34,397 nt of DNA from Gammaproteobacteria bacterium (lineage in GTDB: Bacteria; Pseudomonadota; Gammaproteobacteria; Thiohalomonadales; Thiohalomonadaceae): contig JAPHSX010000049.1 of assembly GCA_026196575.1 (NCBI GenBank), positions 1 to 34,397 on the forward strand, read 5' to 3'. Under the pieces are notes generated by a model that was given only the letters and a program-made list of their open reading frames with translations, searched no databases and was not told the origin of the DNA. This document shows positions 20,288 to 27,515 of this stretch, one piece after another (position 1 is the first letter of the stretch; each line of letters begins with the position of its first letter). Both the position numbers and the translations under genes were made by a program.

Positions 20288-21664
20288 TCAGGCCGCCATC
20301 TTCGCCGCCATGAACTCCAGCCCCTCGCGCCCCTGCAACACATTGGCCAGGGCCAGCTCCAGTTTCTCGTCATCGAGTCCGTAACGCTGTTGCAGCGCCG
20401 GCGGGATCCCCATGCTCGGCGCATCACCGATACCGTGACGCTTGAGCAGGGCGTTGGCGATATAGATCAGGTTGGCGTAGACCGCATAGTCGCCGCGATG
20501 GTCGGCACGGTGGTGCTCGCTTACCGCCTCGGCGATCTCCTTGGGCATATCCCAGGCATCCATCAGCCAGAGGCCCAGCTCGGTATGGCTCACCGCGATG
20601 GTCTCGCGCTCCAGCTCCAGCAAGCTGCGTTGCGGTTCGGCCGCGACGGCCTTGTTGAGGCGTTCGAACTGCGCCGGAAAGAGGTGTCCCAGCAACAGGA
20701 TACCAAAGTTGTGCAACAGGCCGGCGAGGTAACCGACACTCGCAGGCGGGCGAACAGCGTAGTCGATCTGGTTGCAGAGCGCCTGGGTCAGTGCCGCGCA
20801 ATAGAGCGCATGTTGCCAGAAATTATCCAGCCCCAGTGGCCCCGTTTTCGGATTTTTGAAGGCCTTACCCAACGAGAGTCCAAAGGCGAGATCCTCGACA
20901 AAATCCATCCCCAGCACCCGCACGATCGCCTGCTCCACGGAGTTGATCTTGCCCTGATAGGCGTAGAGCGGCGAGCCGGCGTAGCGAATCACCTGGGCAC
21001 TGAGACTGGGGTCCTGCTCAATCACCGCCGTCAGCTCACTGGCGTTGGCGTAGGGGTTGTTGCGAATACGGATGATCTCGGCCGCCAGACCGGGCATGGC
21101 CGGCAGCTCGTTGACCGCCTGCACCTTTTTGCGCATCGCCTCCCCGGGGCTGGCAACAACGGAGGAGTCAGAGCTGCCGCCCTTGACCAGGCTACGCCCC
21201 TTCCAGCCCGCCTCGTGCAGCTTGCCTACAAACTCCGCGCCGCTGGTGGCGATCAGCAGGCTGGCGGTACCAGTGGCAAAATAGAGCGACGGCATCTCGG
21301 CCACCGCGGCATCGACCACGGAGCGCAGACCATAGGGCTCCGCCAGCGGCGGCAGGGCCTGTAGATCACAGTTGGGGAGGAGCTCGCGCACCTCCCCCTC
21401 GCTGCAGAGGGTGAAGTCGCGTTTAAACAGCTCCTTGAGCGACGCCAGATCCAGCTCCTGATCGGCGCGGATCACCACCATCAGGCGGGCCCCCCCCGCC
21501 TTGACCAGCACCGGCTTCACCACTCGGGAGAGGGGAACACCGGCCAGCGCCACGATCGCCTCGAAGCTATCGGCGGGGCTGTCGGCGGAGGCAATCTGGC
21601 GCCCTTTGAAACGCAGCCGGCTATTGGCCAGAAAGGTGCGTACCGTGGATGGGATGTTCATCAT
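20288..21664 (-). CDS. YbaK-like domain fused to an HDOD domain
   Basis: About 458 residues. The N-terminal part (about 10-160) resembles a YbaK/ProRS-editing-type domain (SRVVKPVLVKAGGARLMVVI, then LPPLAEPYGL). The C-terminal part (about 185-385) is an HDOD domain: LPAMPGLAAEIIRIRNNPYANASELTAVIEQDPSLSAQVIR, then GLLHNFGILLLGHLFP, where true HD enzymes have the HD dyad. HDOD proteins are usually non-catalytic signalling regulators. The YbaK-like part lacks the features I would need to call a functional tRNA deacylase. The start is placed at the ATG at 21664, behind GAGGAG; a second ATG follows at once at 21661. It converges with the pentapeptide gene with 27 bp between stops. There is no membrane segment. 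Confidence 0.88.
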   Translation of the reverse strand: MMNIPSTVRTFLANSRLRFKGRQIASADSPADSFEAIVALAGVPLSRVVKPVLVKAGGARLMVVIRADQELDLASLKELFKRDFTLCSEGEVRELLPNCDLQALPPLAEPYGLRSVVDAAVAEMPSLYFATGTASLLIATSGAEFVGKLHEAGWKGRSLVKGGSSDSSVVASPGEAMRKKVQAVNELPAMPGLAAEIIRIRNNPYANASELTAVIEQDPSLSAQVIRYAGSPLYAYQGKINSVEQAIVRVLGMDFVEDLAFGLSLGKAFKNPKTGPLGLDNFWQHALYCAALTQALCNQIDYAVRPPASVGYLAGLLHNFGILLLGHLFPAQFERLNKAVAAEPQRSLLELERETIAVSHTELGLWLMDAWDMPKEIAEAVSEHHRADHRGDYAVYANLIYIANALLKRHGIGDAPSMGIPPALQQRYGLDDEKLELALANVLQGREGLEFMAAKMAA

Positions 21665-21813
21665 GCTTCTCCTCAAACTGCCAGCGGACCATTTTGTCCG
21701 TCATTGGGTAGAAGTATATGGAATAGAGCAGAATATGCTGCGAGTGGAGTCACAGTTAGCCCGGAACAGGCTCACGAACCCAAAGGGATTATTTCCATTT
21801 TGCGAGGGCGTTC

Positions 21814-23001: not shown

Positions 23002-23213
23002 AAATCTGGAACGAGGGGGCCATTTTAACCCCAACCACAGCGCCAACTGATACCCCGCCCCACCGAGGCACCCGTGCCCGACAGCCGCGATCACACCCGT
23101 GCCCCAACGGAAATGAGAACAGCGCATGACTTTATCCCTCCCCGTTGGTAGGATCGCGCATCGTCAAATACCCCCCGTAATAACCGTGCCTTATGCACCA
23201 GCAAGAGGAAGTT

Positions 23214-25160
23214 ATGGAACAAATTCTGGAGATCCGCGACGGTTGCAGCACCCCCGAACAGTTGCTGAAGAGCCGCGCCTTTTCCCGCTATATACGGATC
23301 TACAAGAAGGAGTTCATGGACGAGCTGGGCAGCCGCAGCGGCGTGACGCAAAAGGAGGCGCACCAGCGCAGCGACTTTATCAAGGGGTTGAGCGCGCGCG
23401 ACTTTATCGCCGTGCTCAATCGCGAGGAGCACCCCGGCACCGAAACCCTGGAGCACGACCGCAGCGTGGTGCGTTTTCTCGACGGCGCCTTCCACCACTT
23501 TCGCGGCACCGGCTACTCACGCCTGGTGCGGCTGCAGAACGAGGTGATGCTGGCCGAGGGTGAGACCCCGGAGACGGTCAAGGACAAGGTCACCGCCAAG
23601 GCCGGGGCACTGGCCGACCTGCTGCTGGAGACCCGCCGCCAACTGTTGCGCAAGGCGGGGATGGACAGCGGGGTGCGTCGCAGCTACGGCCTCGACCCCT
23701 CGCCCAACGTCACCTCCGGGGAGATCTCCGGCCACTACCTCAACCTGCCGGGAAGCTACCACGCCCTGGCCCATGTGCCGCTCACCATCGCCGCCGATAT
23801 CCGCACCGGGGTCGACTACACCACCCCCTCCAACAAGCGCGCCTACCCCTTCTACGAACTCGACCACAATCCGCTCGACCTCGATACCTTCGAGCCCGAC
23901 GACTGGGTCTCGGTGCCGCTCCAGGTGGGCGCCTATCTCATCGTCGCCTACCTGCACAAATCACGTGGCTGCATCGAGATGGAGCCGGGGCTGCTCAACC
24001 TCTTTCCCTTCGCCAACATCCGCGAGATCATCGCCGAGCGCCGCCCCGACGGAGTCTTCATCTTCGGCGACCCGCACGCCGGTTTCGGCCCGCAGGGGAG
24101 TAGCGAAAACGAACTCGGCTACTACTACGACAAAGAGAACGACCTGCTGGTGGGGCTGGTACCAAACCGTGACGAGCTCAAGTATTTCGGCTACTGCAAA
24201 AAACCGATCCTCACCCTGCACAACGTGCTGGCCATTCGCGACGGCGACCTGCCGCTGCACTGCGGCGCCACCCGCTACCTGATGCGCTTCGATATCCAGA
24301 GCGGCGAACCCTATATCGAAGAGATGATCATCAAGGCCGACGACATGGGACGCGTCCGCCTGGAGACTGACGGCAACGGCATCACCCGCCCGGTCTTCTA
24401 CGGCACCGAGACCGGCGCCTTTGCCTGCCTCGACGGCTTCTCCGAGGCGGCCAAACTGCAGATGATCGGCCGCGAAGTGGGCTACAACAAGGAGACTGGC
24501 TCCAACGCCCGCCAGATCATCCCCGTCTCCACCGACGAGGAGATGCAGCGCGGCGACCCGCTCGACATCCTGCTCTACATGAACAACTTCGAACTGGTGG
24601 AAGAGGGGAAGAGCACCATCCAGCGCGACCTGAACGTGGATCAGGCGGTCGCCGCCTTTCGCCTCGGTGAGCGCGTTGCCGCCGGCAGCACCCACACCCA
24701 TCGCGGTGCCAAGGAGGCGAGCTTCTGGGCCAACCCCTTCCCGCTACTCAGGGAGCTCAACGGCGAAGAGCACACCATCCTTCACCCCGAACTCTACGAA
24801 AAATTCACCAAGATTGAAGAGCGTTTCATCAGCGTCTTCCGCCAACTGACCGCCAGCCACGAAATGACCCTCGGCATCGCCCACAGTCAGTTGATGGCCG
24901 GCGTCTACGAGGGCAACAGCGACGCCGCGCTGGCCCGTTGCGGCTACCATGATCGCGACGAAGTAGAGATGAAGGCACCAAAGCGCCTCGCCGAAGACCT
25001 CATCGAACTTATCAAGGAACACGCCCAGGTCAAACGGGCGCGTCTTGGCGCCGGCGTCAACGAGGTGAGCATCACCGTCGCCCTGGTCGGCGACAGCCGC
25101 ACCGGCAAATCCGAGACAGCGGAGAAGATGGAAGGGGTGCTCAATCTGCAGGGGGTCTAG
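23214..25160 (+). CDS. Large protein of unknown family with a C-terminal P-loop (PEPCK/HPrK-like?)
   Basis: A 648-residue protein that I do not recognise. GAGG lies 5 bases before the ATG at 23214; an ATG seven codons earlier lacks a ribosome site. No signal peptide or membrane helix is visible. The first 170 residues are helical. The middle is alpha/beta and rich in aromatic and acidic residues. The one clear motif is a Walker A loop, GDSRTGKSE, at residues 626-634, only 23 residues from the end, with no Walker B after it. The loop reads like that of HPr kinase. Earlier segments (DLPLHCGA, KADDMG at about 374, GAFACLDGFSE, NARQIIPV, ILHPELYEKF) appear in an order vaguely like that after the P-loop of ATP-type PEP carboxykinase. 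A permuted kinase of that superfamily is a hypothesis only. It is transcribed alone. Confidence 0.8.
   Translation: MEQILEIRDGCSTPEQLLKSRAFSRYIRIYKKEFMDELGSRSGVTQKEAHQRSDFIKGLSARDFIAVLNREEHPGTETLEHDRSVVRFLDGAFHHFRGTGYSRLVRLQNEVMLAEGETPETVKDKVTAKAGALADLLLETRRQLLRKAGMDSGVRRSYGLDPSPNVTSGEISGHYLNLPGSYHALAHVPLTIAADIRTGVDYTTPSNKRAYPFYELDHNPLDLDTFEPDDWVSVPLQVGAYLIVAYLHKSRGCIEMEPGLLNLFPFANIREIIAERRPDGVFIFGDPHAGFGPQGSSENELGYYYDKENDLLVGLVPNRDELKYFGYCKKPILTLHNVLAIRDGDLPLHCGATRYLMRFDIQSGEPYIEEMIIKADDMGRVRLETDGNGITRPVFYGTETGAFACLDGFSEAAKLQMIGREVGYNKETGSNARQIIPVSTDEEMQRGDPLDILLYMNNFELVEEGKSTIQRDLNVDQAVAAFRLGERVAAGSTHTHRGAKEASFWANPFPLLRELNGEEHTILHPELYEKFTKIEERFISVFRQLTASHEMTLGIAHSQLMAGVYEGNSDAALARCGYHDRDEVEMKAPKRLAEDLIELIKEHAQVKRARLGAGVNEVSITVALVGDSRTGKSETAEKMEGVLNLQGV
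25089..25112 (+). other. Walker A (P-loop) codons at the extreme 3' end of the 23214 gene
   Basis: These codons encode GDSRTGKS, matching GxxxxGK[ST]. The stop codon follows 15 codons later. In HPr kinases the same loop (GDSGxGKSE) is followed by well over 100 residues of catalytic domain, which are absent here. Confidence 0.85.
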
Positions 25161-25574
25161 CCAAAGAGACGGTGACACCTCCGCCTTGAAAAACCACCCT
25201 GTTAGGAACGGCTGTTGTGCCCGTTTTTATTACCCGCGACCGTAATTACTCGCCCCCTCATTGCCACACCCTAAAGTGGAAAGGATAAGCTAACAATTCA
25301 ACCGCAAAGTACGCGAAGTCACGCCAAGTAAAACCTGACTGTCGCTCCGTCCATGGTTATACAACCAATGGCCGTCACACCGCACAATCGCCCACAGAAA
25401 GACCTTTTTCTACTTGGCGTGACTTCGCGTACTTTGCGGTTAGTGCCTTTGATTGTATTTACTTATACCCATCCATCCCCACACCCCGACAGCTCGTAGG
25501 TTGGGGTGAGCGTGCGAACCCCAACGACTGGTTGCCGCGTTACAGTTATGTTGGGGTTCGTTCCTCACCCCAAC
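25161..25574. other. Repeat-rich intergenic region between converging genes
   Basis: This 414-bp gap separates the 3' ends of the P-loop gene and the M48 gene. It contains a 142-bp element with perfect 31-bp inverted ends (25300-25441) and a second palindrome (25496-25578). From 25161 to 25299 I see nothing recognisable and no continuation of the P-loop protein in another frame. Confidence 0.65.
25300..25441. repeat. 142-bp element with perfect 31-bp inverted ends
   Basis: The arms 25300-25330 and 25411-25441 are exact reverse complements (beginning AACCGCAAAGTACGCGAAG), separated by 80 bp of unrelated sequence. Complementarity continues for three more pairs after one mismatch. Arms of AACCGCAAAG...CGCGAAG type are found between genes in many bacteria. 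The size and inverted ends are MITE-like, but I see no target-site duplication and no coding capacity. As RNA it could form a very long stem. Confidence 0.85.
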
Positions 25575-25578
25575 CTAC
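25496..25578. repeat. GTAGGTTGGGG-type palindrome overlapping the M48 stop codon
   Basis: Outer arms GTAGGTTGGGGTGAG (25496-25510) and CTCACCCCAACCTAC (25564-25578) are perfect inverted repeats. Inner arms CGAACCCCAAC and GTTGGGGTTCG continue the stem after a short bulge, around a 24-base loop. This is a common proteobacterial intergenic palindrome. The right end covers the stop codon of the M48 protease gene. Confidence 0.8.
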
Positions 25579-27515
25579 AGGCTTACCGCATCTGCATTGC
25601 CATACCCTGCCACGCCGACCTGCAGCGGCGGTATCGGGCAGTCGAGCGAGGCGCCGATGGCGCGCAGCAGCTCCAGCTCGCTCAACTTCACCTCGCCATC
25701 GGCCATGATGGCGGTGGTGGCCGCCTCGATCACCTTGCCCTTAAATTTGAAATTGAGACGTGAGAGGCGTTGCAGTGCCGCTTCGATCTCCTTAAGCGAT
25801 AGCTCGCTGCGTGGCAACAGGATAATTTCACCGTTGCCGTCGATGAGTTGCGCGGCCTGGGTGAACGCCGCTTCTATCTGCCGCGTATCGGTGTGACCGG
25901 CGTGAGCCATTAGCGAGAGGAGTTGGCCGAGATCGCGATGGATCTGCTTGATGCCACCGTGGTGGCGTGGCCGCGGTGCGGTGCCGCGCTCACTGATGGC
26001 ATGGCGCAACAGGGTGGCGAGGGAGAATTCGAAGAGGGTCACCCGCTGGTCGGCATTGATCAGGGCGTCGACCTCGTCGGGAATGGCGGCGAGCCGCTGC
26101 GCCGGCAACTCTTCAAGGGCCGGGATCGCCAGCTCCAGCAGCGGCAACCAGTCGGCACGCGGCACCTCCTTCAACAGTGCGACCATCGCCAGGGTGCGCT
26201 GTAGCAGGGCCGGTAAGGCATCGGGCAGTGTTATGTGCATGATGCCCTCTGCATCTCCCTCCCGTACCAGCACCAGGGCCAACACCAGGGCGTGGGCCCC
26301 CTCGGCCTCATGCACGCTCTTCCACACCCCCTCCGGCAGCCGCTCCAGCAGGGTGTGGGCATAATTGAGGTGTTGTTCGGTGTAATTGCCGACGCTCTCA
26401 CGCACCGCCTGCGCGGTGTCGGTTCCACCCGACGCGGTTGCAGCAAAACCGCTCGATCCCGATGGCATCTCTGCCTGCATCGCCTGACCCTGCCTACGCC
26501 CCTGCCACTCCATCCGGAAGTAGGGGTCGAGGCGGGCAATGCGCTCCTCTACCGGCGGGTGGGTGGCGAGCAGCGAGAGAAAATTATTGATGCCGTTGCC
26601 GAAGAACATGTGGCTGGCCGATTCGGCGTCGGGGTGATGCAGCCTGGTGGTGTCGAGCCCGGCGATCTTCTTCAGCGCCCCGGCGATCCCCGCCGGGTTG
26701 CGGGTGAACTGCACCGCCGCCGCGTCGGCGAGGAACTCGCGCTGGCGCGACACCGCCGCCTTGATGAGTCGCCCGAAGAAGACGCCAATATAACCGATGA
26801 TGAAGAGCGCCAGGGCCAGCACCACGATGCCGCCGCCCCCTCCCTTCTTGCCGGAGGAGGAGGAGACACGCACCCTGCCGCGTGCGCCGCCGCGCAGGAT
26901 CGCCCGGCCGATGAGGGCCAGCACCAGAATACCGTGCAGCACCCCCATCAGGCGGATATTGAGGCGCATGTCGCCGTTGAAGATGTGGCTGAATTCGTGC
27001 CCCACCACCCCCTGCAGCTCGTCGCGGTTGAGCTGCTCCAGGGTGCCGCGGGTCACCGCCACCACCGCATCGCTGGTGGAGGTGCCGGCGGCAAAGGCGT
27101 TAATGGCGTGCTCGTCGTCGAGGAGATAGACCTTGGGCACCGGGATGCCGGAGGCGATCGCCATTTCGTCGACCACGTTGAGCAGGCGCCGCTCCAGCGC
27201 ATCGTCGCTGCTGCGGCTCACCAGCCGTCCCCCCAGCGACTCGGCCACCTTGCTGCCGCCACCGTGGGAGAGCTGCACCACCTTGTAGAGGCTGGCCAGC
27301 CCGATCACCGCGGAGACCGCCGCCGCGACCCCAAGGAAGAGGTCGGGCTGCCATAGCACCAGCGGCTGGGCTGCACGGCTGCTGTGCGAGTAGCCGATGA
27401 TGCCAAGCAGCACCAGATAAAGGACGACGATGATTGCCGCCACCGCCAGGGCGAAGAGCAGCACCAGCCAGCGGGTGTTGCGGCGCGCCGCCTGCTGCTC
27501 GCCAAAGAAGTCCAT
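25575..27515 (-). CDS. M48-family membrane zinc metallopeptidase (HtpX-like)
   Basis: A 646-residue inner-membrane protease. Seen: two N-terminal helices (about 16-41 and 58-80), the zinc site HEFSH (173-177) with the third ligand probably Glu260 in SRQREFLAD, two further helices between them, a Gly/Ser/Lys-rich loop (about 213-230), and THPPVEERI, typical of M48 proteins. The last 290 residues or so have no counterpart in HtpX: a helical cytoplasmic domain ending in FKGKVIEAATTAIMADGEVKLSELELLRAIGASL, which resembles a TerB-like helical repeat. It follows lemA by 12 bp in the same orientation, a frequent pairing. The likely role is envelope protein quality control, inferred from family. Its stop codon lies within a palindromic repeat. 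Confidence 0.93.
   Translation of the reverse strand: MDFFGEQQAARRNTRWLVLLFALAVAAIIVVLYLVLLGIIGYSHSSRAAQPLVLWQPDLFLGVAAAVSAVIGLASLYKVVQLSHGGGSKVAESLGGRLVSRSSDDALERRLLNVVDEMAIASGIPVPKVYLLDDEHAINAFAAGTSTSDAVVAVTRGTLEQLNRDELQGVVGHEFSHIFNGDMRLNIRLMGVLHGILVLALIGRAILRGGARGRVRVSSSSGKKGGGGGIVVLALALFIIGYIGVFFGRLIKAAVSRQREFLADAAAVQFTRNPAGIAGALKKIAGLDTTRLHHPDAESASHMFFGNGINNFLSLLATHPPVEERIARLDPYFRMEWQGRRQGQAMQAEMPSGSSGFAATASGGTDTAQAVRESVGNYTEQHLNYAHTLLERLPEGVWKSVHEAEGAHALVLALVLVREGDAEGIMHITLPDALPALLQRTLAMVALLKEVPRADWLPLLELAIPALEELPAQRLAAIPDEVDALINADQRVTLFEFSLATLLRHAISERGTAPRPRHHGGIKQIHRDLGQLLSLMAHAGHTDTRQIEAAFTQAAQLIDGNGEIILLPRSELSLKEIEAALQRLSRLNFKFKGKVIEAATTAIMADGEVKLSELELLRAIGASLDCPIPPLQVGVAGYGNADAVSL

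Follow-up and report, generated by a model that had tools for sequence, protein, structure and literature searches.

The stretch of DNA analyzed here (the window, 34,397 nucleotides) contains on its forward strand an open reading frame at 23193-25160 that encodes 655 amino acids from its first ATG. The second ATG (MEQILEIRDG) is where homologues start, and 23214-25160, corresponding to 648 residues, is therefore the preferred call. Residue numbers refer to the 648-residue protein unless stated otherwise. The features of the gene, named after their counterparts in phosphoenolpyruvate carboxykinase (PEPCK), are the following:

23214..25160, +: whole gene, 648-residue PEPCK-superfamily protein with a C-terminal P-loop; start set by homologues, the alternative ATG at 23193 adding 7 residues
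24183..24203, +: YFGYCKK (aa 324-330), equivalent of PEPCK Y207-x4-K212-K213 by comparison of the YxGxxKK motif
24252..24269, +: PLHCGA (aa 347-352), with H349 as counterpart of PEPCK H232, at a distance of exactly 19 residues from the second K
24285..24317, +: RFDIQSGEPYI (aa 358-368), scar of the strand-P-loop-helix that Bacillota relatives and PEPCK have at this place; alignment gap of ~22 columns
24333..24350, +: KADDMG (aa 374-379), Walker B Asp pair equivalent to PEPCK D268-D269; DDMG is invariant in both subfamilies
24504..24524, +: NARQIIP (aa 431-437), with R433 as counterpart of PEPCK R333 by comparison of the NxRxxxP motif
24726..24743, +: WANPFP (aa 505-510), counterpart of PEPCK CFGAPF by hhalign of the Bacillota family against PEPCK
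25023..25067, +: variable linker (~aa 604-618), past the end of the Bacillota relatives in the alignment
25068..25157, +: relocated element (aa 619-648), consisting of strand SITVALV, Walker A GDSRTGKSE (626-634) and helix TAEKMEGVLNLQ, up to the protein end; corresponds to Bacillota HMM 357-380 and is conserved across the family

Elsewhere in the window, at 20291-21676 (-), an aminoacyl-tRNA editing (YbaK-like) domain is fused to an HDOD domain.

A 648-residue protein ending in a P-loop

The initial annotation had described a P-loop at the extreme C-terminus of this protein. The chain indeed ends with SITVALVGDSRTGKSETAEKMEGVLNLQGV and a stop codon, and the same element, with its Walker A invariant, is found in every intact gammaproteobacterial member of the family. 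Walker A (GDSRTGKS, aa 626-633) is followed by only 15 residues and thus, as had been pointed out, leaves no room for a downstream Walker B. A random 30-residue tail of the same composition would contain a Walker A pattern with a probability of ~0.0016. The upstream segments that had been likened to those following the P-loop in PEPCK are all present (LPLHCGA, aa 346-352; KADDMG, 374-379; GAFACLDGFSE, 401-411; NARQIIPV, 431-438; ILHPELYEKF), but the PEPCK equivalent of LPLHCGA precedes the P-loop rather than following it.

The suggestion that the protein represents an undescribed family was upheld by routine profile searching, in which no known family claimed it and no Pfam or NCBIfam model reached its cut-off. 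The Pfam and NCBIfam matches to PEP carboxykinase were both sub-threshold (E 0.28 and 0.0035, respectively; residues ~330-364 in the 655-residue numbering), with 10.3 bits for PF01293 (gathering cut-off 26.5) and a score of 16 for the NCBIfam model (cut-off 369). Sequence searches of the PDB with the window protein and with the gammaproteobacterial profile gave no match.

Kinship with PEPCK and an unrearranged Bacillota subfamily

Pseudomonadota and Bacillota were sampled systematically. Relatives outside the gammaproteobacteria were found only in Bacillota or in genomes close to them (loci L016-L019, by pattern search, and L045-L074), with matches, two of them weak, in 64 of 295 Bacillota genomes. 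At ~29% identity, this Bacillota subfamily (34 proteins examined) is the nearest outside relative found. It has the same catalytic motifs as the gammaproteobacterial family, but its P-loop lies mid-protein (e.g. GDSGAGKSE) and a C-terminal extension is lacking. In 34/34 proteins a single P-loop, GDSG(A/C)GKSE, is separated from the downstream Asp pair by some 25-30 residues, an arrangement shared with PEPCK, and the proteins stop in the alignment where the gammaproteobacterial extension begins. Apart from the loop, both groups are collinear over ~520 aligned columns (hhalign E 4e-54). One Bacillota-type protein, AYP99509.1 (CP033373.1 88508-90217), which forms a long branch in the tree described below, is encoded on the mobilizable plasmid CP033373 of Limosilactobacillus fermentum and annotated as 'phosphoenolpyruvate carboxykinase'.

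The YxGxxKK motif was present in 18/19 PEPCKs, 34/34 Bacillota proteins and 23/23 gammaproteobacterial proteins. It was followed, 19 residues after the second K, by His in 18/18, 33/34 and 23/23, the Bacillota exception being a spurious early regex match, and NxRxxxP occurred in 18/18, 34/34 and 23/23. YxGxxKK-18-H, DD and NxRxxxP are thus in register across the three groups. We take the corresponding residues of Escherichia coli PEPCK to be Y207, K212, K213, H232, D268/D269 and R333, of which Y207 and R333 are substrate-side residues. Walker A precedes DD in PEPCK and the Bacillota proteins, whereas it follows NxR in 23/23 gammaproteobacterial proteins, and the PF01293 trait of a Walker A between the His and Asp strands is absent from all gammaproteobacterial members. 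As for R65, the Arg of the N-terminal domain that binds the substrate carboxylate in PEPCK, an invariant N207-K208-R209 is at most a suggestive candidate, since a forced global alignment was needed to bring it close to TGRSPKDK.

Compared with ATP-PEPCK (PF01293), the family therefore shares the motif register but ends in a GKSE loop instead of carrying GKTT mid-protein, and it possesses a long extra N-terminal region with ~170 residues lacking a PEPCK counterpart. With HPr kinase/phosphorylase (HPrK; PF07475) it has the GKSE-type Walker A in common: GDSRTGKSE keeps the GxS..GKSE of the HPrK loop GxSGxGKSE, with R replacing G. HPrK is, however, much shorter and has its loop before the Asp pair. 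Against HPrK, hhalign aligned 19 columns and detected no similarity beyond the loop, nor was there a PF07475 match; the P-loop region of the Bacillota subfamily matched HPrK at 91.8%, but over 31 columns. Against PEPCK, the Bacillota subfamily aligned over 279 columns (E 1.6e-6). A PDB search with the Bacillota profile returned no more than weak matches to P-loop proteins, including HPrK and PEPCK.

An AlphaFold2 model of the window protein, built from five rows (window protein plus four Bacillota relatives), had a pLDDT of 38 and was set aside. The model of an unpermuted Bacillota relative was also of low confidence (pLDDT 52). With this model, PEPCKs led in Foldseek (E 2.7e-4; 50/50 among the matches listed) and also in VIA-align (Z up to 6.2, rmsd 9.0, 183 residues; 49/50 among the matches listed); given the pLDDT of 52, this ranking is taken as support and not as proof. 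ECOD places HPr kinase and PEPCK in one topology group (PMC7758060). Taken together, the motif register and the HMM and hhalign matches confirmed the link to the PEPCK/HPrK superfamily, with a displaced P-loop, that had been proposed from the initial annotation.

Relocation of the strand-P-loop-helix unit

The order of segments is N-P-C in the Bacillota proteins and N-C-P in the gammaproteobacterial proteins. Accordingly, an HMM of the 34 Bacillota sequences matched the window protein as three out-of-order blocks (655-residue numbering): model positions 21-347 at residues 18-359, 383-537 at 373-541, and 357-380 at 626-649. The scar is visible as a jump of the model from 347 to 383 at residues 359 to 373, and it is also the best re-insertion point of the tail. 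The latter was determined by moving the 30-residue tail to every position of the protein and scoring each construct with the Bacillota HMM; 100 shuffled tails served as control. The score peaked at residue 372 (655-residue numbering), at the gap, where it rose from 214.9 for the native to 243.3 for the restored protein, whereas shuffled tails reached at most 228.3, a gain of no more than 14 bits for the best of 100. The canonical site was best in 5/5 proteins tested (the window protein and four others), 27-29 bits above native. Restoring the tail also changed the hhalign result against ATP-PEPCK (19 sequences) from a probability of 12.6% and E 0.0023 to 92% and E 6.5e-7; insertion of the tail 150 residues upstream or 80 residues downstream left it unchanged. 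A 30-residue strand-P-loop-helix unit has been relocated to the C-terminus in a non-circular rearrangement.

In a maximum-likelihood tree computed with the loop excluded, each subfamily lies on its own side of a branch with 100/100 support, as would be expected if the relocation happened once. Because this tree has no root, the direction of the move, from the middle to the C-terminus, was deduced from PEPCK and HPrK, both of which carry the loop mid-protein.

Within the gammaproteobacteria, the gene was detected in the window genome and in 13 others of 95 genomes searched, with 56-72% full-length identity where intact. A class-wide sample yielded matches in 20/369 genomes, 2 of them short fragments, and a phylum-wide sample of 299 genomes none beyond the window's own genome. 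A match was present in 19/25 genomes of an order whose members have only ~1 Mb and should contain few dispensable genes, which counts in favor of the reading proposed below. The only sampled congener of the window genome (G001) lacks the gene though 98% complete, and occurrence within the genus is thus patchy. Phage, plasmid and IMG/VR collections contained no gammaproteobacterial-type member, and one plasmid carried the Bacillota type.

Altogether 37 intact members from 11 gammaproteobacterial families were read out (23 distinct ones including the window protein, plus 14). Whether homologues also end just after the loop had been proposed as a check, and 37/37 do: each has exactly one P-loop, at the C-terminus, and none continues beyond the common end. 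No two-P-loop evolutionary intermediate was seen among the 71 proteins read out. Tail columns are invariant in 50% of cases as opposed to 25% of body columns, and the mean majority fraction is 0.89 in the tail and 0.60 in the 22 residues preceding it. For the three pairs that allowed an estimate, dN/dS ranged from 0.10 to 0.33 in the body and from 0.02 to 0.17 in the tail. The protein is under purifying selection, and this selection is strongest in the tail. This segment is thus the best protected of the whole chain, as would be anticipated for part of an active site.

These data bear on two other accounts of the C-terminal loop. The initial annotation had suggested that a PEPCK/HPrK-type kinase was circularly permuted, which would explain why Walker A follows Walker B in sequence. 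In such a protein the old termini should be fused, yet they are not; the N-terminal 360 residues are in place and collinear with those of the unpermuted relatives, and the internal 30-residue unit alone (~Bacillota HMM 357-380) has moved. Alignment and three-block HMM match refute this account, and we regard it as extremely improbable. Nearly as improbable is an artefact or dead protein, i.e. a truncated gene, a chance GKS motif or a degenerate pseudo-enzyme. It could draw on one related genome (G063), in which the gene at C1:4622-6528 (L013/L015) is split into two overlapping frames by a frameshift within GTETGAF/ACLDGFSE, and on its congener G203, which kept only a 52-position remnant; either recent decay or a sequencing error may account for this state. 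Truncation is refuted by the common end of all 37 intact members, and the invariant catalytic motifs and the selection on the tail argue against a dead protein.

Rearranged P-loop proteins are known from the GTPases YjeQ/RsgA and YlqF, in which the whole chain is rotated and the order of the P-loop motifs is changed. The window family resembles them in that the motif order is altered relative to the ancestral NTPase, and it differs in that one internal unit has moved while the remainder stayed collinear. In the freely accessible literature searched, no permuted PEPCK or HPrK was encountered, and one published kinase classification treats circular permutation in general terms only (PMC1079889). 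A PEPCK relative with a relocated loop that is common to a gammaproteobacterial family has apparently not been described before.

Putative active site and function

In the ancestral order the β1-P-loop-α1 unit stands after the His strand and before the Walker B strand; in this family it has moved from there to the C-terminus. The excision would have left a short hairpin, RYLMRFD-IQSGE-PYIEEMIIKADDMG. In HPr kinase, the antiparallel strand that precedes the P-loop strand is inserted between the P-loop and Asp strands (PMC7758060). With such a strand already in between, removal of β1-loop-α1 would join two neighboring strands by a short turn, which makes the hairpin geometrically plausible; the detached unit would need to attach to the same strand from its opposite side. 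The C-terminal tail would dock back into the core sheet beside the strand after H349, either in cis or in a swapped dimer, and Walker A would meet D376/D377, K329/K330, H349 and R433 to complete a PEPCK-type metal and nucleotide site. Catalysis would then be a reversible nucleotide-dependent phosphoryl transfer of the PEPCK type (oxaloacetate/PEP). On the strength of the sequence comparisons, these gammaproteobacterial proteins very probably form a new subfamily within the PEPCK/HPrK superfamily, their relocated P-loop rebuilding a PEPCK-type site, with PEPCK-type phosphotransfer as the likeliest activity. That the moved β-P-loop-α module still completes a working site of this type in a natural, stably inherited, non-circularly permuted protein, possibly as a detachable element that could be supplied in trans, appears probable. 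PEPCK-type chemistry as such we consider about an even call, leaning slightly in its favor.

The main competitor accepts the relocation and takes the enzyme for a different kinase, either HPrK-like or directed at some other small molecule or protein, with the same fold and metal site and another phosphate acceptor. The GKSE ending of the P-loop, the short HPrK match of the Bacillota loop region and the ~170 N-terminal residues foreign to PEPCK would fit, as would the normal GTP-PEPCK also encoded in the window genome, owing to which the relocated-loop protein is not required there as the sole PEPCK. We nevertheless judge this the less probable reading, as the equivalents of Y207, K212, K213, H232, D268/D269 and R333 are all kept at PEPCK spacing and the similarity to HPrK is confined to the loop. 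The distribution of ATP-PEPCK, found in 1/40 carriers versus 19/77 non-carriers (Fisher p 0.0017), likewise looks like that of an enzyme for which the family substitutes; counted by family (1/12 versus 19/66), p is 0.17 and not significant, so the association is only suggestive. In the order with ~1 Mb genomes, where the relocated-loop gene is nearly universal, ATP-PEPCK was not found. A further variant, in which the P-loop acts in trans, domain-swapped in a dimer, so that the enzyme is an obligate oligomer, is rather unlikely. The variable linker of ~15 residues before the tail would permit it and swapped C-terminal elements are common in general, but the ancestral register is recovered to the same degree whether the tail acts in cis or in trans. 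A PEPCK-type site completed by the C-terminal loop remains the preferred reading. No conserved gene neighbor that would fix a pathway was observed across the loci compared, which suggests a stand-alone enzyme. A role in defence or in phages was dropped, as PADLOC and PHROGs gave no convincing match.

Nucleotide-binding loops are normally fixed in their fold, and here a core strand, loop and helix are relocated while the other active-site parts are kept. The unrearranged sister subfamily allows direct comparison with the relocated-loop family. The protein may serve as a natural object for testing the minimal Walker A unit as an independent module, for which isolated or designed peptides are usually employed; the β-P-loop-α unit closely resembles the seed from which P-loop NTPases have been proposed to descend. 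As a consequence of the relocated loop, a PEPCK-like enzyme goes unrecognized in the profile-based annotation of many gammaproteobacteria, those of the genome-reduced order among them.

Just downstream of the gene lies a 34-nt inverted repeat (25300-25333 and 25408-25441; 97% complementary, 74 nt apart), with copies of its arms, 88% identical, on two further contigs of this genome; it is possibly a small mobile or REP-like element. A second inverted repeat (25491-25510 and 25564-25583; GTAGGTTGGGGTGAG...CTCACCCCAACCTAC) adjoins it.
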